From: Nitrospiraceae bacterium
Lineage (GTDB): Bacteria; Nitrospirota; Thermodesulfovibrionia; Thermodesulfovibrionales; UBA1546
Direction: 5' to 3'
Length of the DNA stretch: 45,139 nucleotides
Assembly: GCA_021373015.1 (NCBI GenBank)
Contig: JAJFTJ010000008.1
Span: 1 to 45,139 of the forward strand
Shown here piece by piece: positions 23,617-36,152 of the stretch. Numbering within the stretch: the stretch's first letter is position 1; the number at the start of each line of letters is the position of its first letter. Under the pieces are notes generated by a model. The model was given only the letters and a program-made list of their open reading frames with translations, ran no database searches and was not told where the DNA came from. Made by a program: the position numbers and the translations under genes.

Positions 23617-24969
23617 TCAGGGCGTCTTTATTTCATACTGTTTTATCTTGCGGTGGAGGTTGCTTCTTTCTATATCAAGTATGTCTGCTGTCTTTGATAT
23701 GTTCCAGCTATTTTCTTCGAGTTTCTTGGTAATATAATCTTTTTCAAATGCATCTCTTGCATCTTTTAGTTTTTTATAATTAAGGTATTCTGCGCTTTCA
23801 AGCTTACCTGGTATGAACATATCTTTGCTTGTTATTATATTGGAGGGTGTCATTATAAAAAATCTTTCGATTAGATTTCTTAATTCTCTTACATTGCCCG
23901 GCCAGTCATAATCAACAAGCGTCTTTATTCCTTCGATGTCAATTTTTTTCAAAGGTTTACCGTACTCTGTACTGATACTCTCAAGAAAATAATTAATAAT
24001 AAAAGGGATGTCCTGTTTCCTTTCTCTAAGCGGAGGAATTTCGAAAGGTATAACATTAAGCCTGAAAAACAGATCTTCTCTAAAGTTGCCTTTTTTTACT
24101 TCTTCTTTTAGATTTTTATTTGTTGCTGCGATTATCCATACATCTACATTTATTTTTTTGCTTCCTCCGACTCTCTGAAATTCCTGAGTCTCGATAACGC
24201 GAAGAACTTTTGACTGGGTCTGAAGAGACATGTCCCCTATCTCATCTAGGAACAATGTGCCATTATCAGCGAGTTCGAACTTTCCTTTTTTCTGTTCAAA
24301 TGCCCCTGTGAATGAGCCTTTTTCATGGCCGAAAAGCTCGCTTTCAATAAGTTCCTGTGGTATAGCTGCACAGTTAACCTCGATAAAAGGTTTGTCTGCA
24401 CGAGGACTTTTTTCATGCAGGAGTCTTGCAACAACCTCTTTACCGGTTCCGCTCTCGCCTGTTATCAAGACTCTGCTGCTGCTTTGCGATGCCATGTCTA
24501 TCTGTTTTTTGATATCGGCTATTTCTGCAGATTCGCCAATCAAGACCCATTTTTTTGTGAGATTTTTTTTGAGTGTTATGTTCTCAATTTCGAGATTGCG
24601 TCTTTCAAGTGCCCTGTTGGACACGAGTAACACTCGTTCTAGTGAAAGAGGTTTTTCCAGAAAATCATAAGCCCCAATCTTTGTTGCTTTAACTGCAACT
24701 TCTATATTCCCATGCCCTGATATCATGACTACAGGGATTTCAGGCCATTTTACCTTTATCTCATCAAGCGCCTGAATACCGTCTATACCGGGTAGCCAGA
24801 CATCAAGAAGTATCAGGTCTAAATCTGGAGATGAATTTTTTAAAATTTCCAGCGCATCTTCTGCTGAATTCGCAGTAATTGTCTCATAGCCTTCGTCTTC
24901 GAATATTCCCGAAAGGCTGTCCCTTATCCCTTCTTCATCATCAACAATAAGAACTAATGGTTTTGGCAA
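23617..24969 (-). CDS. NtrX-like sigma-54-dependent response regulator
   Basis: This 450-residue protein has a receiver domain with phosphoacceptor D56 (LLLDVWLPG), an AAA+ domain with Walker A GESGTGKE, and a Fis-type helix-turn-helix at the end ([20 protein letters not shown]). The sigma-54-contacting loop reads GSFTGA rather than GAFTGA. It is directly downstream of an NtrY-like kinase (15-base gap). The pair resembles NtrYX, linked to nitrogen and redox control in other bacteria. The actual target genes are unknown. Confidence 0.9.
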
Positions 24970-24984
24970 TCCGCTGCTCCTTTT

Positions 24985-27030
24985 TTATAAGTCATACGAC
25001 TTTATTGGTATTGATATAGTAAACACAGCTCCATTAGGATTATTATCTTTCACTCTTATATACCCCTTGTGCTCTGCTATTATTTTATTTGCAATAGCAA
25101 GACCAAGCCCTGTTCCGCCTTTTTTTGTAGAGAAGTAAGGTTTGAATATTTTTTCCTTATCTTCTTCTGTTATTCCAGGACCGTCATCAGCAATATCAAT
25201 CAACAATTTGTTAGCAGAATCATCTTTATACACTTTAATTTCTATATTGCCGCTGTACCCCATTGCCTGAAATGCATTATCAACAATATTGATCAAAACT
25301 CTTTTAAACTGTTCTCCATCAAGCTCTACCAGTATCATTTTATCAGGTATTGTTGTCTTTATGCTAAATTCTTTATAACCTTTATATAATTCAATAATTT
25401 CATCTATAATGCTGACAATATTTATTGGTGTTTTTTTAATCTCAGGCATTTTGCCTAAAGTTGAGAAATCATCAACAAGTTTTTTAAGGCTGTCTACTTC
25501 TTTAACTATCGCCTTTGTAGCATGCTCGAATATCTGGCCAAAGTTTTTATCTTTCTGTTCCCATTTTTTTTGCATTCTCTCTGCTGATAGTTTTATGGGC
25601 GTTAAGGGATTTTTTATCTCGTGCGCTATTCTTCTTGCAGCCTCTTCCCATATAAGGTTCTGTTGAGCCCTTATAATGTCTGTAATATCATCAAAAACAG
25701 CGAGGAGTCCTATGGGCGTATGAGTTATATCCCTTAATGTGGTGACAAAAACCCTCAAGGTAAGATTTTTTTCTGATGTTGTTACCTTTACGTTTTTTTC
25801 AACACCGCTGAGGTCTTTTATAATAATTCCCCTTATTAGTGCATGGAGTTCATCTGATTTAATCTTCTGCATTAATTCTTTGTAGGTTTTGCCTATGACG
25901 TCTTCCCGATTAAGATTAAGGATTGAGTAGGCAGCGCTGTTGATTGTGAGAATTTTCCCGGATATATCCAGAAACAGAACGCCAGAATTGATATTAGCAA
26001 GAATATTTTCCATCCAGAGTCTGCGCCTGTCAGATTCCATATGTGCTTTTTGAAGAACTTCTTTGCCGCTTTTTAATTCAGTCACCATGTGGTTGAATGA
26101 ATTAATCAGCAGGCCTATCTCATCTTCCCGTTGCATTTTTAAAGCAAAATTCAGATTGCCTGATGCAACTTCCTCTGTTGCCTGTGCAAGTTTTTGTATG
26201 GGGTCTGTTATTCCTCTTGATATCCTCAGTGCAACCCATAGGGACATGAACACAATGATCAGAGTGAAAAAAGTTAATATCATCATGTAGTTCATCTTCA
26301 GCGGCACTTTCCATGATTCAAGCTTCAGATAATCTTCATAGGCTTCTTTTATCTTTTCTACATTTGCAGAAATGCTCTTGGGCAGATGAGTCTCTACTAC
26401 AATGACCCCGGGTGTTTTTACAGATGATTTGTCAGGAACAACTGCTCTTATTATATCCCCGTTTTCACTTGAAATGACCTCAGTTCCCTCCTTCCCATTA
26501 AATGCGAATTTGACAGTCTCTGAAGGGTTATCAGGCAGTTTATTCAGGTGTGTAACCTTGTACTGAGGAGATATTCTGCTGCCTTCAACTGCTGTTTTTG
26601 CAAAATCCAGAGTTCTCTGCTTTTCCATGTCGTATAATGTTTTTGCCACTTCAATTGTGCTTACAAAAGGCTGTCTGAACTGCGGGGTGAGCAATTTGTC
26701 TATGTAATTAGTAACAAGACCGCTTGCAACAAAAAAGAGAAGTGCAGAAGGGATTGACGTGAGAATAACAAATACAACAACTATTTTTGTTTTGAATTTA
26801 TAGCCGAGAATTTTTTGTTTTCGCTCAATGTATATCCTTAAAAGGCTTTTGCCTACGTAGAACATTAAAGTTAACAGTGCAATTATATTCAAGTTGAATA
26901 ATATGACAAGGAGAATCCTGGTCATAATGGAGACGGTCTGAAGCCGCATATAGTGCAGTTCAATCGCAGTTGCTGCTATTATTAGAATGAAAATACCTAT
27001 GATTGTTATTCCATATCTAACGTTCTTCAT
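24985..27030 (-). CDS. NtrY-like membrane histidine kinase
   Basis: At 681 residues this is a multi-domain kinase. Two membrane segments lie near the N-terminus (about 8-25 and 37-60). A third follows at about 85-110 before a periplasmic domain of about 140 residues. A fourth lies near 250-270. Then come a HAMP domain (RGITDPIQKLAQATEEVASG), a PAS domain, the phosphoacceptor histidine in ARRIAHEIKNPLTPIKLSAE, and the ATPase boxes NIVDNAFQAM, DIADDGPGI and GGTGLGLAI. The ATG overlaps the DUF4390 stop (ATGA). Confidence 0.92.
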   Translation of the reverse strand: MKNVRYGITIIGIFILIIAATAIELHYMRLQTVSIMTRILLVILFNLNIIALLTLMFYVGKSLLRIYIERKQKILGYKFKTKIVVVFVILTSIPSALLFFVASGLVTNYIDKLLTPQFRQPFVSTIEVAKTLYDMEKQRTLDFAKTAVEGSRISPQYKVTHLNKLPDNPSETVKFAFNGKEGTEVISSENGDIIRAVVPDKSSVKTPGVIVVETHLPKSISANVEKIKEAYEDYLKLESWKVPLKMNYMMILTFFTLIIVFMSLWVALRISRGITDPIQKLAQATEEVASGNLNFALKMQREDEIGLLINSFNHMVTELKSGKEVLQKAHMESDRRRLWMENILANINSGVLFLDISGKILTINSAAYSILNLNREDVIGKTYKELMQKIKSDELHALIRGIIIKDLSGVEKNVKVTTSEKNLTLRVFVTTLRDITHTPIGLLAVFDDITDIIRAQQNLIWEEAARRIAHEIKNPLTPIKLSAERMQKKWEQKDKNFGQIFEHATKAIVKEVDSLKKLVDDFSTLGKMPEIKKTPINIVSIIDEIIELYKGYKEFSIKTTIPDKMILVELDGEQFKRVLINIVDNAFQAMGYSGNIEIKVYKDDSANKLLIDIADDGPGITEEDKEKIFKPYFSTKKGGTGLGLAIANKIIAEHKGYIRVKDNNPNGAVFTISIPIKSYDL

Positions 27031-27602
27031 TTTGTAATCCTGAGCTGGATTTTCTGAGAGTCTTTTGTGACCTTGAATTCTTTTTCAGGCACAAAAAAGA
27101 AGAGATAACTCAGAACCAGAGGCAGTCTTCTTAGTTTTGATTCAACAGTTATTTTTATGAAATATTCGTCTTGATCTAATTCTTTTATGTTTGTAAGCTT
27201 AATCTTATTCACTGAAAGAGCCCATTTAAGCATTGAATTAAAATTATTAAATCGTCTTTCGGTTATAACCATCCCGTCAAAGGATGACGCAACATATTCT
27301 TTTTTTATTGGATCTGATTTTAATGTTTTTACAATGACTTTCCCTAGAATAAATTCATTGGGCCATATGCTCCAAACCCTGAATAAATCAATATAAAAGG
27401 TTATTTCTTTTGAAATTCCGTTTTTTAAATCTTCAACATGTATCTCATCCAATATGACGCCTGTTGTAACAAATATTTCATTGTTTATGACAGTTGTCTC
27501 TGGTCCAATTATCTCTGCAGATTCAGAAAACAGCGGTGTGAGCATAATAGAGGCAAAAAGAAATAACAGAACAAAAACATGATTGCTTTTTCTTGTAGTC
27601 AA
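27027..27602 (-). CDS. DUF4390 exported protein
   Basis: This protein matches DUF4390, small exported proteins commonly encoded just before ntrY. The frame is open to 27740, but a promoter at 27640-27648 lies inside that extension, so the start must be later. TTG 27602 gives 191 residues with a clean signal peptide (TTRKSNHVFVLLFLFASIML, cleavage near SESAE). The AGGAG before it is 14 bases away, so the exact start is uncertain. The mature part is predicted beta-rich. It may sense or scaffold something for the kinase, by gene order only. Confidence 0.75.
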   Translation of the reverse strand: MTTRKSNHVFVLLFLFASIMLTPLFSESAEIIGPETTVINNEIFVTTGVILDEIHVEDLKNGISKEITFYIDLFRVWSIWPNEFILGKVIVKTLKSDPIKKEYVASSFDGMVITERRFNNFNSMLKWALSVNKIKLTNIKELDQDEYFIKITVESKLRRLPLVLSYLFFFVPEKEFKVTKDSQKIQLRITK

Positions 27603-27639
27603 TTTAAGCTTGATGTCTCCTATGAAAAATTTATTTTTA

Positions 27640-27648
27640 ATTATAACA
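27640..27648 (-). promoter_or_regulatory. Extended -10 promoter for DUF4390-ntrY-ntrX
   Basis: On the minus strand TGT (27648 down to 27646) is followed by TATAAT (27645 down to 27640). Transcription would start near 27633, giving a leader of about 30 bases containing AGGAG. It lies in the region shared with the divergent adenosine-kinase-family gene. Confidence 0.5.
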
Positions 27649-27690
27649 TACTGATTATAGCTATTAGTCAGCAGCATAAAGGGGGATTTT

Positions 27691-28173
27691 ATGGAAATAA
27701 GAAGCATTAAACTCAATATTCCAGAGGGATGCAATCTCATACTGGGACAGACTCATTTTATCAAGACAGCAGAGGACCTTTACGAAATATTAGTTACAAC
27801 AGTCCCAAAGGCAAAATTCGGGATTGCATTTAGCGAAGCATCAGGTCCATGCCTTATAAGAACAGAAGGGAATGACAATCATTTGATTGATGTTTGTGTT
27901 GCAAATATTCAGGCTCTTGGATCAGGTCATGTTTTTTGTATTCTCCTGAAAGATGCCTATCCTATAAATGTTCTTAACCAGATAAAAAACTGTCCTGAAA
28001 TATGCAGAATTTTCTGCGCAACATCAAATCCCGTAGAGGTTGTGATAGCGAATATGCTGCAAGGAAACGGAATACTCGGTGTTGTGGATGGCTTTGCACC
28101 CAAAGGGACAGAAACACAAGAAGACAAGACAGAAAGAAAGGAATTCCTGCGGAAAATAGGGTATAAATTATAG
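27691..28173 (+). CDS. Adenosine-specific kinase family protein (DUF355)
   Basis: This 160-residue protein matches the compact family first noted in archaea and anaerobic bacteria (Adenosine_kin, DUF355). Characteristic segments are LILGQTHFIKTAEDLYE, GIAFSEASGPCLIR, CATSNPVEVVIA and GVVDGFAPKG. Members have been annotated as adenosine-specific kinases, but the biochemical role is not well settled. There is no signal peptide. An AAGGGGGA site precedes the ATG. It lies 112 bases before dsrC on the same strand. Confidence 0.85.
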   Translation: MEIRSIKLNIPEGCNLILGQTHFIKTAEDLYEILVTTVPKAKFGIAFSEASGPCLIRTEGNDNHLIDVCVANIQALGSGHVFCILLKDAYPINVLNQIKNCPEICRIFCATSNPVEVVIANMLQGNGILGVVDGFAPKGTETQEDKTERKEFLRKIGYKL

Positions 28174-28285: not shown

Positions 28286-28621
28286 ATGCCGATGCTTGAG
28301 TTTAAGGGAAAGCAATTTGAGATTGACGATGATGGCTATATTGTAAATCTCGAAGAATGGAATAAAGAACTTGCTGAACATCTGGCAGTGCTCGATGGCG
28401 TCAAGCTTACACCAGCGCACTGGGAGGTAATAGATTTTCTCAGAAACTATTACAAACAATACCAGATTGCTCCTATGATAAAGATTCTTGCAAGGGAAGT
28501 CGGCAAGGTTCTTGGCCCTGAAAAAGGGAATACAAAATATCTGTATGAATTATTCCCTGGCGGTCCTGCAAGACAGGCATGTAAATATGCAGGCCTTCCA
28601 AAACCCACAGGCTGTGTATAA
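28286..28621 (+). CDS. dsrC: DsrC/TusE-family sulfur carrier protein
   Basis: DsrC carries sulfur on C-terminal cysteines and is a substrate of the DsrMK membrane complex. This 111-residue protein ends QACKYAGLPKPTGCV, with both redox cysteines (C99 and the penultimate C110, spacing CX10C) present. It is therefore the DsrC type, able to form the trisulfide, and not merely TusE with one cysteine. The DGYIVNLEEWN and LTPAHWEVIDFLRNYY segments are typical. AAGGAGG precedes the ATG. The dsrM- and dsrK-like genes follow after a strong hairpin; dsrAB are not in the window. Confidence 0.92.
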   Translation: MPMLEFKGKQFEIDDDGYIVNLEEWNKELAEHLAVLDGVKLTPAHWEVIDFLRNYYKQYQIAPMIKILAREVGKVLGPEKGNTKYLYELFPGGPARQACKYAGLPKPTGCV

Positions 28622-28647
28622 ATCTAAGGTATAATTATAAGTAGATA

Positions 28648-28684
28648 AACATAAGGCAATGCAAAAAGCATTGCCTTATGTTTT
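28648..28684 (+). terminator. Strong hairpin/terminator between dsrC and dsrM
   Basis: A perfect 15-bp stem (28648-28662 with 28668-28682) with an AAAAA loop ends in four T residues and then AAGGGG, the ribosome binding region of dsrM. The short T tract suggests partial termination, or mRNA protection that makes dsrC transcripts more abundant than dsrMK. Confidence 0.75.
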
Positions 28685-28696
28685 AAGGGGCTGAAT

Positions 28697-29512
28697 ATGC
28701 CGACGTTTTTATTTATACTACCAGCAATAATATATGCTGCAGTCTTAATTTTTGCAGTTGGTATTGTTTGGCATTTTATTTACTGGCTTAGAAGCCCGAA
28801 TCCCTTAAAAATTCCATCGGGAGCAGCGCCTACAAATGCTGTCGGTACCTTTATCAGGGCAAGCAGTGAAATTATTTTTTTCACAAGCCTTGGCAAGGGT
28901 GAAAAAGGGCTGTGGCTGGGCAGTTATTTATTCCATCTCTTGCTTTTAATGACAGTCCTGGGTCATCTAAGATATTTTTTTTATCCTGTTCCTGCATGGG
29001 TTCTCTTCTTCTCCAGCCTTAGAATTTATACAGTATTCATTTTTATGTTGTCAATTCTCTATCTGATTATAAGAAAAATTGCGATTGACAGGATGCGTTA
29101 TATATCAAAACCAATAGATTATTTTTATCTTTTGGTTTTGTTTTCAATAGGCTTGACCGGCTTGATAATGAAATTTGTTGCAAGACCTGTCTTGGTGGAT
29201 ATCAAAGATTTTATTCTGCATATAAATGCGCTGAGTCCTATCCGCTTGCCCGAGACAGTTGGATGGTTTTTTATCCTTCATTTATGTTTTGTGCTTCTTA
29301 TCTTAATAATATTTCCTTTCAGCAAATTAATGCATGCAGGAGGTGTTTTTATCACGCCAACAAGACTGATGATTAACAATCCAAGATTAAAAAAACACAT
29401 TAATCCATGGGCTGATAAAGAATGGACTGAGAAACTTAAAGATTCTGCAAATGAAGCGGATTCATATAAACCATGGTCAGTTGAACAATGGAGTAAAAGA
29501 TGCCAGAGATAA
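28697..29512 (+). CDS. dsrM: DsrM/NarI-like membrane cytochrome b subunit
   Basis: This 271-residue protein has about five membrane helices (near 5-30, 73-95, 100-125, 140-162 and 187-210). Histidines H80 and H90 (10 apart) and H195 and H213 (18 apart) reproduce exactly the spacing of the four heme-b ligands of E. coli NarI. This supports a diheme quinol-oxidising subunit of the NarI/DsrM/HdrE type. The short hydrophilic C-terminus is about 55 residues. It overlaps the next gene (dsrK-like, start 29500) by 13 bases, so the two are co-translated. Confidence 0.88.
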   Translation: MPTFLFILPAIIYAAVLIFAVGIVWHFIYWLRSPNPLKIPSGAAPTNAVGTFIRASSEIIFFTSLGKGEKGLWLGSYLFHLLLLMTVLGHLRYFFYPVPAWVLFFSSLRIYTVFIFMLSILYLIIRKIAIDRMRYISKPIDYFYLLVLFSIGLTGLIMKFVARPVLVDIKDFILHINALSPIRLPETVGWFFILHLCFVLLILIIFPFSKLMHAGGVFITPTRLMINNPRLKKHINPWADKEWTEKLKDSANEADSYKPWSVEQWSKRCQR

Positions 29513-31065
29513 ACGACGAAGAAAAACCTGTTAAAAAAATAGAAGAGTTAATGAAATGGGAAAGACAGAATTATGAGGTTCCTGAACTGTCCGGCAAAAT
29601 AATAGTTCCTCCATTAAAAACCAATGCATCGAGAAAATACTTCCCGCAATTATTTAAAAACAAGGAAGCGTTAAAAAGACTTGGTTATCCGCTTGACGGA
29701 CTTGTCCCGGACTGGAGAGAAAAGTTTCTGCAGAAGATGAAGGAAGTTCTTAATAAGTACAGATCAGTTAAGCTTTTCATGGACATTTGTGTCAGATGCG
29801 GTGCGTGCACAGATAAATGTCATTTCTATCTTGGGACGGGCGATCCTCTTAATATGCCTGTTGCAAGGCAGGGGTTAATGAGAAAAATTTACATGAACCA
29901 TTTTATCCCCGCAGGCAATCTTATCCATCATGTGACTTCTTCGGAAGTTCTAACAGAGGAAATGCTTGTGCTTTGGTATACGTATTTTTATCAGTGTTCT
30001 GAGTGCAGACGATGCTCTGTTTTCTGCCCTTATGGCATTGACACAGCAGAGATTACAATGGCTGCAAGAGAAATATTAAACAGTATCGGACTTGTACAGA
30101 GATATACTCATGAGATAATGGATAAGTCTCAATATTTTGGAAATAATCTCGGCATGATACCTGCCGCCTTGAAAAATTCCATTGAATTTGTCGAAGCAGA
30201 TCTTAAAGAACAAACAGGCAAAGACATAAAAATTCCAGTGGATATAAAAGATGCTGATGTGCTTTTTGTGTCTCCTTCAGCAGATTTTTTTGCAACTCCG
30301 CATATTGAATCTCTTTACGGCTATGCAAAGGTGTTTCATCAGGCTGGAATAAGCTGGACGGTCAGTACATATGCCTCAGAAGGTTCAAACTTTGGTTCGT
30401 TTGTTTCTAACTACAATAATATGAAAATAATAAACAAAAGAATATGGGATGCGGCGAAAGAATTGAGGGTTAAGAGAGTTGTTGGAGGGGAGTGCGGGCA
30501 TATGTGGCGGGTTCTTTCTTCATATAGCAATACAATGTGGGGAAAGTTTGACTGGCTGGATAATAGATATCCGATACCCCAGCATATATGTGAATTCACT
30601 CTTGACCTTATAAAGAGAAAAGCAATAAAAATTGATAAAACCATGAACGATAATTTTATCGTTACTTACCATGATTCATGCCAGATTGCAAGAGGCTCTG
30701 AAATGGGCGGAACAAAGAATGGACCATATGAAATACCAAGACAGATTATAAAAGCTTGCGTTAATAAATTTATTGAGATGCCAAAAGATACGATTAAAGA
30801 AAGAACATTCTGCTGCGGCGCAGGTCAGGGGCTCCTTGGCGATGATATGCTTCCTATTAGAGTAAAAGGTTCAATGCCAAGAATGCAGGCGATAAAGTTA
30901 GTAAAAGATAAGCACAATGTTAATTTTCTTGCTCTAATTTGCGCTATTTGCAAGGCTCAGTTCACAGGCATATTCCCAATATATGGCTATAATATGGAAG
31001 AGGTTGGCGGTGTTCATCAGCTGGTTAACAGGGCAATTGTATTGGGAGAAAAGGAAGGCTTGTGA
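29500..31065 (+). CDS. dsrK: DsrK/HdrD-like iron-sulfur subunit
   Basis: This 521-residue protein has two N-terminal [4Fe-4S] motifs: C97, C100, C103, C107 and C166, C169, C172, C176. It also has a C-terminal CCG-type domain (YHDSCQIARG, FCCGAGQG and LICAICKAQF) that binds the noncubane cluster reducing disulfides in HdrB/HdrD/DsrK. DsrK is thought to reduce the DsrC trisulfide using electrons from DsrM. The gene is overlapped by dsrM upstream and by the small cytochrome gene downstream. Confidence in the DsrK label is high given DsrC nearby, though related HdrD-like enzymes exist. Confidence 0.9.
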   Translation: MPEINDEEKPVKKIEELMKWERQNYEVPELSGKIIVPPLKTNASRKYFPQLFKNKEALKRLGYPLDGLVPDWREKFLQKMKEVLNKYRSVKLFMDICVRCGACTDKCHFYLGTGDPLNMPVARQGLMRKIYMNHFIPAGNLIHHVTSSEVLTEEMLVLWYTYFYQCSECRRCSVFCPYGIDTAEITMAAREILNSIGLVQRYTHEIMDKSQYFGNNLGMIPAALKNSIEFVEADLKEQTGKDIKIPVDIKDADVLFVSPSADFFATPHIESLYGYAKVFHQAGISWTVSTYASEGSNFGSFVSNYNNMKIINKRIWDAAKELRVKRVVGGECGHMWRVLSSYSNTMWGKFDWLDNRYPIPQHICEFTLDLIKRKAIKIDKTMNDNFIVTYHDSCQIARGSEMGGTKNGPYEIPRQIIKACVNKFIEMPKDTIKERTFCCGAGQGLLGDDMLPIRVKGSMPRMQAIKLVKDKHNVNFLALICAICKAQFTGIFPIYGYNMEEVGGVHQLVNRAIVLGEKEGL

Positions 31066-31361
31066 TGAGTGTTTTGAGAATTATTTTGTCTTTTACGGTT
31101 TTATCCTTATTAGCTTCCTGCGAGATCGTTGAAAAACCAGCTATTGGAGGAAAGGGACCTCTGGGGCTCGAAATATCTAAGGGTCTGTCAGCCCCTGATT
31201 ATCACAATCCAAAAAAAATTTGGATGGCGAGACATATGGATGAACTTAATTCAGGAAAATATAAAACTCAGGAATGCTTTGTATGTCATCAACATCCTGA
31301 TAATTTCTGTAATAAATGCCATGATTACATTGGTGCAAAAAAGATAATAGCTGTAAATTAG
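31062..31361 (+). CDS. Two-heme c-type cytochrome lipoprotein (reduced DsrJ-like)
   Basis: This 99-residue protein overlaps the dsrK stop (GTGATGA). The N-terminus is a lipoprotein signal with lipobox LASC and lipidated C20. Two CXXCH heme sites follow: C72-C75-H76 and C83-C86-H87. The segment RHMDELNSGKYKTQECFVCH and the NFCNKCHDYIGAKK stretch resemble the C-terminal half of DsrJ, but DsrJ normally has three hemes and a membrane helix, and no third CXXCH is present here. It is probably a periplasmic partner of the DsrMK pair. The DsrJ relation is inferred. Confidence 0.75.
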   Translation: MMSVLRIILSFTVLSLLASCEIVEKPAIGGKGPLGLEISKGLSAPDYHNPKKIWMARHMDELNSGKYKTQECFVCHQHPDNFCNKCHDYIGAKKIIAVN

Positions 31362-35135: not shown

Positions 35136-36152
35136 TTATAAAGGTTCCCAGTATTTTGCAGGCATATCTTCTGCAAGTTTCAATGCTCCATTTGAACCGG
35201 CAAATAATGGGTCTTGAACAGTTGTAACTCTGCATTCCCTGTAATCTTTGAGTGCGTCCTGAAGATATTCACGAATCCCCTTAATAAGACTTCCTCCGCC
35301 CGCAAGGACAATGTTGTTTTTAATCTTTGCCTGAAATTCAGGGTCAAATTTTGCTATCAATTCGATTGTTGTATCTATTATAGCAGGCATGATGCTTTCG
35401 CATGAGCGTTTTATTTCATTAGTTATGTCGTGGATTACAGGTTTGCCGTCAACAGGGATATCCACTTTTATTTCGTTAGGAATTTTTTTAACAAAACTGT
35501 ATTTTTCCTTGAACTGGCGTACCATATTTTTGTTAAATTTTGAATTGGGATATTTTTCATTCAGGTAATTGAACAGTTGTTCATCGATATAATCGCCTGC
35601 AAAGAGTATTGTCTTTTGATCTTCTTCAGAAGGAACAGTGCCATGCATAATGCAGAAATCAGTTGTACCGGCGCCAATGTCTATCACAAGAGCGTTATTA
35701 AGGAGACTTAATCCATATGCCACTGCAAAAGGTTCTGATACAACCATAAGGGATTGGGCAAACCCTGCAACCGCTTTCCTGATTGATAATTTATTAACCT
35801 TCAATGTGTCTGCCGGCACTCCTACAACTGCATGTATCTTCTGTCCAGAAGCTGGTTTTGCAAGTTCTATAAGATGCTTAATAATTTCCTTTACTGCCTC
35901 TTCATTTTTCTCTATGCCTTCTTTGATCACGCCATGCTCAAGAGGCCTGCACAGATCAAGAGACAGTCTGTTCTGGAGAGCATCTGAACCGAAAAGAACT
36001 GATTTGCCTATAACCTGAGCAGCAATAAAGTCTTTAGGCCAGCCAACATAGCTCTCTATCCATTCTCTTGAACCGTTACTTGATGAGATTGAACTCCTGG
36101 ATGTTCCAAGATCGATTCCTGCATATAGTGTGTTTTCATCTTTTTGCTTCAT
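35136..36152 (-). CDS. MamK-like bacterial actin
   Basis: This 338-residue protein has the actin/Hsp70 ATPase motifs: phosphate-1 GIDLGTS (12-18), the hydrolytic glutamate E140 in VVSEPFAVAYGL, phosphate-2 DIGAGTTD (158-165), and adenosine motif LAGGGS (283-288). By memory the sequence tracks magnetosome MamK more closely than MreB or ParM, including VGWPKDFI, GTVPSEEDQ and the ending ALKLAEDMPAKYW (MamK: ALRLAEELPPQYW). No other magnetosome (mam) gene is in the window. It starts 17 bases inside the end of the amidase gene, with AAGGAG upstream. A filament-forming cytoskeletal protein is strongly indicated; its cargo is unknown. Confidence 0.88.
   Translation of the reverse strand: MKQKDENTLYAGIDLGTSRSSISSSNGSREWIESYVGWPKDFIAAQVIGKSVLFGSDALQNRLSLDLCRPLEHGVIKEGIEKNEEAVKEIIKHLIELAKPASGQKIHAVVGVPADTLKVNKLSIRKAVAGFAQSLMVVSEPFAVAYGLSLLNNALVIDIGAGTTDFCIMHGTVPSEEDQKTILFAGDYIDEQLFNYLNEKYPNSKFNKNMVRQFKEKYSFVKKIPNEIKVDIPVDGKPVIHDITNEIKRSCESIMPAIIDTTIELIAKFDPEFQAKIKNNIVLAGGGSLIKGIREYLQDALKDYRECRVTTVQDPLFAGSNGALKLAEDMPAKYWEPL

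Follow-up and report, generated by a model that had tools for sequence, protein, structure and literature searches.

Assembly GCA_021373015.1 (Nitrospiraceae bacterium) carries, on contig JAJFTJ010000008.1, a locus in which dsrC is followed by a compact set of dsrM-, dsrK- and dsrJ-like genes (positions 28286–31361 of the 45,139-nt stretch that we analyzed, hereafter "the window"). The host descends from sulfate reducers and no longer has dsrAB or aprA. We regard it as an evenly balanced proposition that the four genes encode a compact DsrMKJ-type quinone:DsrC oxidoreductase at work in this former sulfate reducer. The genes of the compact set are given primed names (dsrM', dsrK', dsrJ'), J' being a two-heme (in some genomes four-heme) homologue of DsrJ. 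Genomes, DNA stretches and contigs are labeled G, L and C, respectively, and f1, f2 and f12 are families in the same order: f1 is the family of the window genome by RpoB (83–86% identity, vs. 75–76% to the more distant G080 and G075), f2 is Magnetobacteriaceae-like, and f12 includes G075 and G076.

All four genes lie on the forward strand. The 111-residue product of dsrC (28286..28621) scored above the cut-offs of PF04358 (148 bits) and TIGR03342 (152 bits) and ends in ...QACKYAGLPKPTGCV, with both C-terminal cysteines (C99 and C110) present; it is a redox-active, two-cysteine DsrC by these measures. DsrM' (28697..29512; 271 aa; PF02665, 49 bits) is a NarI-like heme-b membrane subunit whose heme-b histidines, H80-x9-H90 and H195-x17-H213, are invariant across the alignment. 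Its score against the equivalog NF038037 was 161 bits, below the cut-off of 300, yet this was its best family by far. DsrK' (29500..31065; 521 aa) is an HdrD-like Fe-S catalytic subunit (NF045796, 544 bits; cut-off 400); its two CX2CX2CX3C motifs and the cysteines of its CCG domain are intact and invariant. Lastly, dsrJ' (31062..31361; 99 aa, GTG start) encodes a lipoprotein with the lipobox LASC and two CXXCH motifs. The dsrM' and dsrK' genes overlap by 13 bases, dsrK' and dsrJ' by 4. Between dsrC and dsrM', a perfect 16-bp hairpin is followed by a few T residues (28647..28683; the folded region, 28622–28696, has a predicted energy of -25.5 kcal/mol). It was not among the predictions of a consensus terminator scan; our guess would be a terminator or an attenuator. 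A search of solved structures matched DsrM' to NarI and placed DsrC nearest 1yx3; it returned no match for DsrK' and none of significance for DsrJ'. The whole genome holds a single dsrC and a single genuine dsrK. A first-pass annotation of this DNA, made from the sequence alone, had described a full DsrC, a DsrM with NarI-like heme spacing, a DsrK and a lipid-anchored cytochrome without the third heme, and all four descriptions hold.

No match to PF01077 was found anywhere in the genome by a search that read through stop codons, nor was any remnant of one; the genome therefore lacks siroheme sulfite reductases altogether, dsrAB included. TIGR02061 (aprA) likewise had no match in the whole genome, and the markers of dissimilatory sulfate/sulfite reduction that were sought (dsrAB, aprA) are consequently missing. 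Neither dsrO nor dsrP occurs at the locus or in the window, and the genome as a whole was not searched specifically for them; the sole matches resembling them in the stretches examined were subunits adjoining molybdopterin enzymes. A DsrMKJOP complex, with dsrO and dsrP accompanying dsrMKJ, is not encoded at the locus or in the window. The earlier claim that dsrAB, dsrO and dsrP are missing thus extends to the entire genome for dsrAB and holds at the scale of the window for the other two.

Is the small cytochrome a DsrJ? Its best NCBIfam model was that of the triheme DsrJ (NF038038), at just 17.8 bits against a cut-off of 100. We compared profiles with hhalign, using 23 such cytochromes and 36 triheme DsrJ proteins. 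The resulting score was 97.2 (99%, E 5.5e-18); the maximum among 60 column-shuffled controls, in which the heme cysteines and histidines were fixed in place, was 44.3. When the CXXCH residues were masked, the score was 52.3, compared to no more than 12.7 for the masked controls; other multiheme cytochromes scored 32–40. Because each of the two scores lies far above its own controls, the small cytochrome is almost certainly a DsrJ homologue. The two groups have a block in common that runs from an HM helix through C..CH and (F/S)C..CH to Y.G, and the J' gene sits directly 3' of dsrK, the position of dsrJ. Relative to DsrJ, J' has a deletion after the HM helix, no third CXXCH and no N-terminal cysteine. 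This cysteine occurs in none of the 23 J' proteins and in 31 of the 36 triheme DsrJ proteins; a [YTS]H sequence stands near that site in 19 of the 23. We do not claim that the cysteine is necessarily a ligand of the lost heme, as the five triheme proteins without it keep the third heme. An AlphaFold2 model of DsrJ' (16-row alignment) was not usable (mean pLDDT 60, pTM 0.36). With homology established and no full-length dsrJ found elsewhere in the genome, the initial description of a pared-down DsrMKJ complex with a DsrJ-related cytochrome survives both checks that might have overturned it. A literature search, with most subscription papers out of reach, yielded no account of a two-heme DsrJ or of a genome of this type.

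We propose with considerable confidence, from gene order and phylogeny, that the locus is a mosaic: the family's own flank and dsrC joined to a foreign, oxidative-type dsrM'K'J'. To the left of dsrC lies an adenosine-specific kinase gene (27691..28173, forward; PF04008, 252 bits), a neighbor common to the dsrC-dsrTMKJOP locus of the family. It is preceded by genes for an NtrX-like regulator, an NtrY-like kinase and a DUF4390 protein (23617..27740, reverse), a conserved flank that anchors the locus and that adjoins dsrC/dsrM in eight f1 genomes at 54–75% identity. Six f1 genomes (G001, G003, G004, G008, G009 and G010) have these three genes in reverse orientation, then the adenosine-specific kinase, an ORF of about 125 aa and dsrC in forward orientation, then a DsrT-like ORF of 180–210 aa and canonical dsrM-K-J-O-P; the counterpart of the DsrT-like ORF in G016 matches RsbRD_N. 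G006 and G012 have the same left flank with dsrMKJOP. The window has the f1-type left flank and dsrC, followed by M'K'J' in place of T-M-K-J-O-P, of which no remnant was found there.

Phylogenies point the same way. In the DsrK tree, the window copy falls in a 19-row Nitrospirota clade (support 100*) with G080, G075, G076 and f2, and its sister is G080; in the DsrM tree, it groups with the f12 genomes G075 and G076 (98*). Both proteins are far from the DsrM and DsrK of their own family, and they group with those of proteobacterial sulfur oxidizers, not with the Thermodesulfovibrio type, which places them in the oxidative-type DsrMK clade. DsrK' is about 75% identical to its nearest relative in G080 and only 61% identical to that of G025, although G025 is close by RpoB. 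The DsrC of the window, by contrast with its neighbors, is nearest to the f1 copies and is 77% identical to the DsrC at the same place in G003 and G004. In approximately unbiased (AU) tests on an alignment of just 111 columns, placement of DsrC with f12 was rejected (p 0.003–0.018) and placement with f1 was not (p 0.2). A first test of the f1 placement gave p 0.046 with G013, an odd long branch, included; the value of 0.2 was obtained without G013 and three other long rows. From its position and the AU test, the window dsrC is most likely the family's native copy. The arrangement is best read as lateral transfer with in-place replacement of dsrTMKJOP by foreign dsrM'K'J', and it suggests that DsrMKJ can be exchanged as a module around a seemingly native DsrC. 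In f12, too, the DsrC proteins of M'K'J' genomes group with the copy of a canonical-type genome of that family (98/86), so swaps of the membrane module around a native DsrC may have taken place on more than one occasion. G013 itself (L051, which is contig C70, and L050) has dsr genes on long branches unlike its supposed family and five PF01077 matches; its dsr contig is possibly foreign to its bin.

We gathered relatives by searching with DsrK' and used PF01077 as the test for a sulfite reductase. M'-K'-J' with a two-heme J', mostly preceded by dsrC, occurs in Nitrospirota (L059–L062, L064, L066) and Chloroflexota (L118, L121, L123, L124); M'-K'-J' with no adjoining dsrC occurs in Thermodesulfobacteriota/Deltaproteobacteria (L128, L130, L131). 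Among 176 genomes of the order, DsrK' was found in f2, G025, G075, G076, G080 and the window genome. The four named genomes share the cluster dsrAB-dsrD-dsrN-dsrC-M'-K'-J', which TusA-DsrEFH genes adjoin where the contig extends far enough. PF01077 was present in 30 of 30 other genomes in one set (20 of them carriers) and in 19 of 19 in another; of the 39 other carriers or near kin by DsrK that were tested, none lacked it, and it frequently lay only a few kilobases away. Because PF01077 is broader than DsrAB, a different siroheme enzyme may account for the match in a few of these genomes. The compact complex is as a rule accompanied by a sulfite reductase, and of the carriers found, the window genome alone lacks dsrAB. 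We had considered M'K'J' as a marker of a missing sulfite reductase and rejected it, the other carriers tested all having PF01077. For the same reason, the shortening is independent of the loss of dsrAB. The role outside sulfate reduction that the first-pass annotation envisaged accordingly fits this genome, with neither dsrAB nor aprA, and fails as a general property of the reduced form. The two-heme DsrJ', its third heme and N-terminal cysteine gone, represents a natural truncation experiment across several phyla.

Several variants of these proteins were encountered. A four-heme J', a tandem duplication of the two-heme unit, occurs in f2 and G080 (L045–L049, L057, L058, L167, L170, L171, L173, L174). 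L172 (G110; the same as L068) holds an isolated M'K' pair on a long branch, with no dsrC or J' adjoining; the same genome additionally encodes a canonical DsrK. In a Thermoleophilia DsrJ (L084:11467-11883), the third heme motif is CLDKNGGCH, with unusual spacing. In the dsrK of four Thermodesulfobacteriota/Deltaproteobacteria genomes, a single in-frame TGA takes the place of the codon for the conserved cysteine in the motif GE[C]GH (L131:10778, L130:2381, L128:10871, L129:3899), with a GGCC-GGTCT-GGCC hairpin just 3' of it; a two-heme J' adjoins in three of the four. These DsrK proteins likely contain selenocysteine, and our literature search found no mention of a selenocysteine-containing DsrK.

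What might load the DsrC of this genome? A short contig (C12, 11.8 kb; L201:3021-4417) encodes homologues of DsrH, DsrE, DsrF and TusA consecutively, matching the sets that adjoin the dsr clusters of G075, G080 and G025 and of the canonical G022 and G037. The CPYP site of TusA and the CEAC site of DsrE are kept. The TIGR03011 score (50.6 bits) is above cut-off, and DsrE and DsrF match their own models below cut-off; we take the four as a tusA-dsrEFH set. In known systems, the penultimate cysteine of DsrC receives sulfur from DsrEFH, release of that sulfur joins the two DsrC cysteines in a disulfide, and the reductant has been proposed to be DsrK (PMC3397948; PMC13293266). The second DsrC cysteine has been found only in organisms with DsrAB, except Methylococcaceae, Marinobacter and Lawsonia (PMC3397948), and the window genome is a further exception to this rule. 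Because that cysteine is nearly confined to DsrAB organisms, its retention here points to retained disulfide chemistry.

A specific mechanism can be drawn from these parts, namely the menaquinol-dependent reduction of a DsrEFH-loaded DsrC persulfide/disulfide; it is the likeliest role of the set, and we consider it plausible and just short of evenly balanced. With DsrAB gone, DsrEFH would take over as the loader of DsrC: TusA and DsrEFH would charge the last DsrC cysteine with sulfane sulfur, the donor being polysulfide, a cysteine desulfurase or some other source, and attack by the second cysteine would free sulfide and leave a DsrC disulfide. DsrK' would then reduce the disulfide with electrons from menaquinol, relayed by the pair of b hemes in DsrM', and the two-heme DsrJ' would exchange electrons at the periplasmic side. 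Overall, menaquinol would supply the electrons to reduce sulfane sulfur or the DsrC disulfide, with no sulfite reductase involved. We infer both the substrate and the direction. Reduction is preferred over oxidation, the less likely direction, because, with DsrAB missing, there is no enzyme to remove DsrC-bound sulfur as sulfite; no other route is known by which oxidized sulfur on DsrC could proceed to sulfite. That the whole amounts to DsrAB-independent sulfane-sulfur respiration, arisen by the DsrTMKJOP-to-M'K'J' swap and the loss of sulfite and APS reductases, is a tentative and rather doubtful extension.

The same carriers could serve biosynthesis. DsrC would then take the part of TusE at the end of a TusA-TusBCD-TusE relay to tRNA 2-thiouridine, with M'K'J' incidental. 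Homologues of TusA, TusB/DsrH, TusC/DsrF and TusD/DsrE are indeed all present, and the Escherichia coli homologue of DsrC is TusE (PMC3397948). However, TusE-type proteins nearly always lack the second cysteine (PMC3397948), which is kept here, and the window DsrC scores 117 bits against the TusE equivalog model, below the cut-off of 191. A biosynthetic role would also leave unexplained an intact, swapped-in membrane complex adjoining dsrC. We judge it unlikely.

Selective constraint bears on whether the compact oxidoreductase still works. Between genomes, dN is 0.15–0.57 with dS saturated, a purifying pattern from which, given the saturation, no real dN/dS value follows. Of the 57 DsrC columns invariant in relatives, 55 are retained. 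Several observations weigh against the proposed oxidoreductase. V69A and K70R in DsrC are changes at the other two of these columns, and the dsr set evolves faster here: the end branch of DsrK' is 0.33 vs. 0.11 for G080, and that of DsrC is 0.26 vs. about 0.01–0.08 for f1 (for RpoB, 0.14 vs. 0.04–0.11 in relatives). This acceleration could reflect relaxed constraint; it would also be expected upon a change of partners. Finally, dsrAB could lie in a gap of the assembly, which has 22 contigs. A decaying leftover of a lost sulfite-reduction pathway would fit the acceleration along the end branches of DsrC, M' and K' and the finding of just one genome of this kind. Such a relic is nevertheless unlikely, since the four genes are intact, overlap tightly and conserve their functional residues, dN is far below dS, and the set is whole while aprA and dsrAB have gone without trace. 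The gene set is, on these sequence features, likely functional.

Could the assembly gap account for the absence of dsrAB, and is the organism simply a sulfite or sulfate reducer of the usual kind that has a compact M'K'J'? The number of contigs, the PF01077 proteins in all other M'K'J' carriers examined, and the location of TusA-DsrEFH on so short a contig as C12 lend this idea some substance. Yet the genome (1.69 Mb) is rated 100% complete with 0% contamination, aprA is missing too, dsrAB is neither on C12 nor at the dsrC locus, and the stop-tolerant search turned up no remnant. Within the order, PF01077 was found in 58 of 61 sampled genomes, and the only two others without it are less than 75% complete (74% and 66%). 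A gap is thus quite improbable, and dsrAB is very likely truly absent from the organism. A role for DsrMKJ' in setting the thiol/disulfide state of DsrC or other proteins, for redox balance or regulation and apart from sulfur respiration, is in line with the suggestion of the first-pass annotation. It would agree with an HdrD-like DsrK that acts on disulfides and with a set of molybdopterin proteins none of which could be assigned with certainty to dedicated sulfur respiration, but it is very unlikely, as a quinone-linked membrane complex and a kept DsrEFH-TusA relay fit sulfur trafficking better.

The proposed oxidoreductase resembles several known systems in part. Like the DsrMKJOP complex of sulfate reducers (Desulfovibrio, Thermodesulfovibrio), it has a DsrM with two b hemes, an HdrD-like DsrK, a DsrJ homologue and an adjoining dsrC; unlike it, the window set lacks DsrO, DsrP and DsrT, its M and K are of the oxidative type, its DsrJ' has two hemes, a lipid anchor and no N-terminal cysteine, and the genome has no dsrAB. 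Oxidative-type DsrMK has been reported in lineages with reductive-type dsrAB, as MK alone or as full MKJOP (Neukirchen et al. 2023, PMC10504309); the window proteins fall on the same side of the DsrK tree and have no DsrOP, whereas the window genome has no dsrAB, and the portion of that report available to us does not mention a two- or four-heme J' after dsrK. Cable bacteria also have dsrMKJ in one locus, with no dsrOP adjoining and a divergent DsrJ, but their DsrMK is of the reductive type, dsrAB, apr and qmo are present, and dsrOP homologues lie elsewhere (PMC13047784, PMC10926707). The TusA-DsrEFH-DsrC relay of Allochromatium vinosum (PMC3397948) and the DsrEFH type II system (PMC13293266) have the same carrier chain with DsrMK as redox partner; there the chain feeds DsrAB, which the window genome lacks. 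Escherichia coli TusABCDE comprises homologous carriers without a dissimilatory sulfite reductase, yet TusE, unlike the window DsrC, retains a single cysteine of the pair and works without a DsrMK partner. New here are the mosaic locus formed by in-place swap and the sole carrier found without dsrAB. The exact role of the DsrJOP unit has been called unclear (PMC10926707). A genome that uncouples DsrC-DsrMK from DsrAB makes the action of DsrMK on a DsrC persulfide directly testable with no sulfite reductase present. The findings suggest that DsrC and a compact DsrMKJ may be capable of sulfur or disulfide chemistry apart from sulfate respiration. The presence of dsrC and dsrMK does not prove sulfate reduction, and a two-cysteine DsrC is an unsafe marker for DsrAB.

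In its wider gene content the organism resembles an anaerobe that relies on the Wood-Ljungdahl pathway for its carbon metabolism. CODH/ACS and an Nfn-like pair are encoded in the window; outside it the genome has a complex I operon, formate dehydrogenase-N, HdrABC-type genes and a NapA-like enzyme adjoining an octaheme cytochrome. The latter, at the end of contig C5 (L202:3773-10997), is related to hydrazine dehydrogenase/hydroxylamine oxidoreductase; its neighbors are the 1116-aa NapA-like molybdoenzyme and an Fe-S protein, and molybdoenzymes of like size occur in G075 and G080. Also in the window, at 35136–36152 on the reverse strand, is a gene for a MamK-family actin-like protein (417.5 bits vs. 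an NCBIfam cut-off of 400), in a genome of 1.7 Mb.

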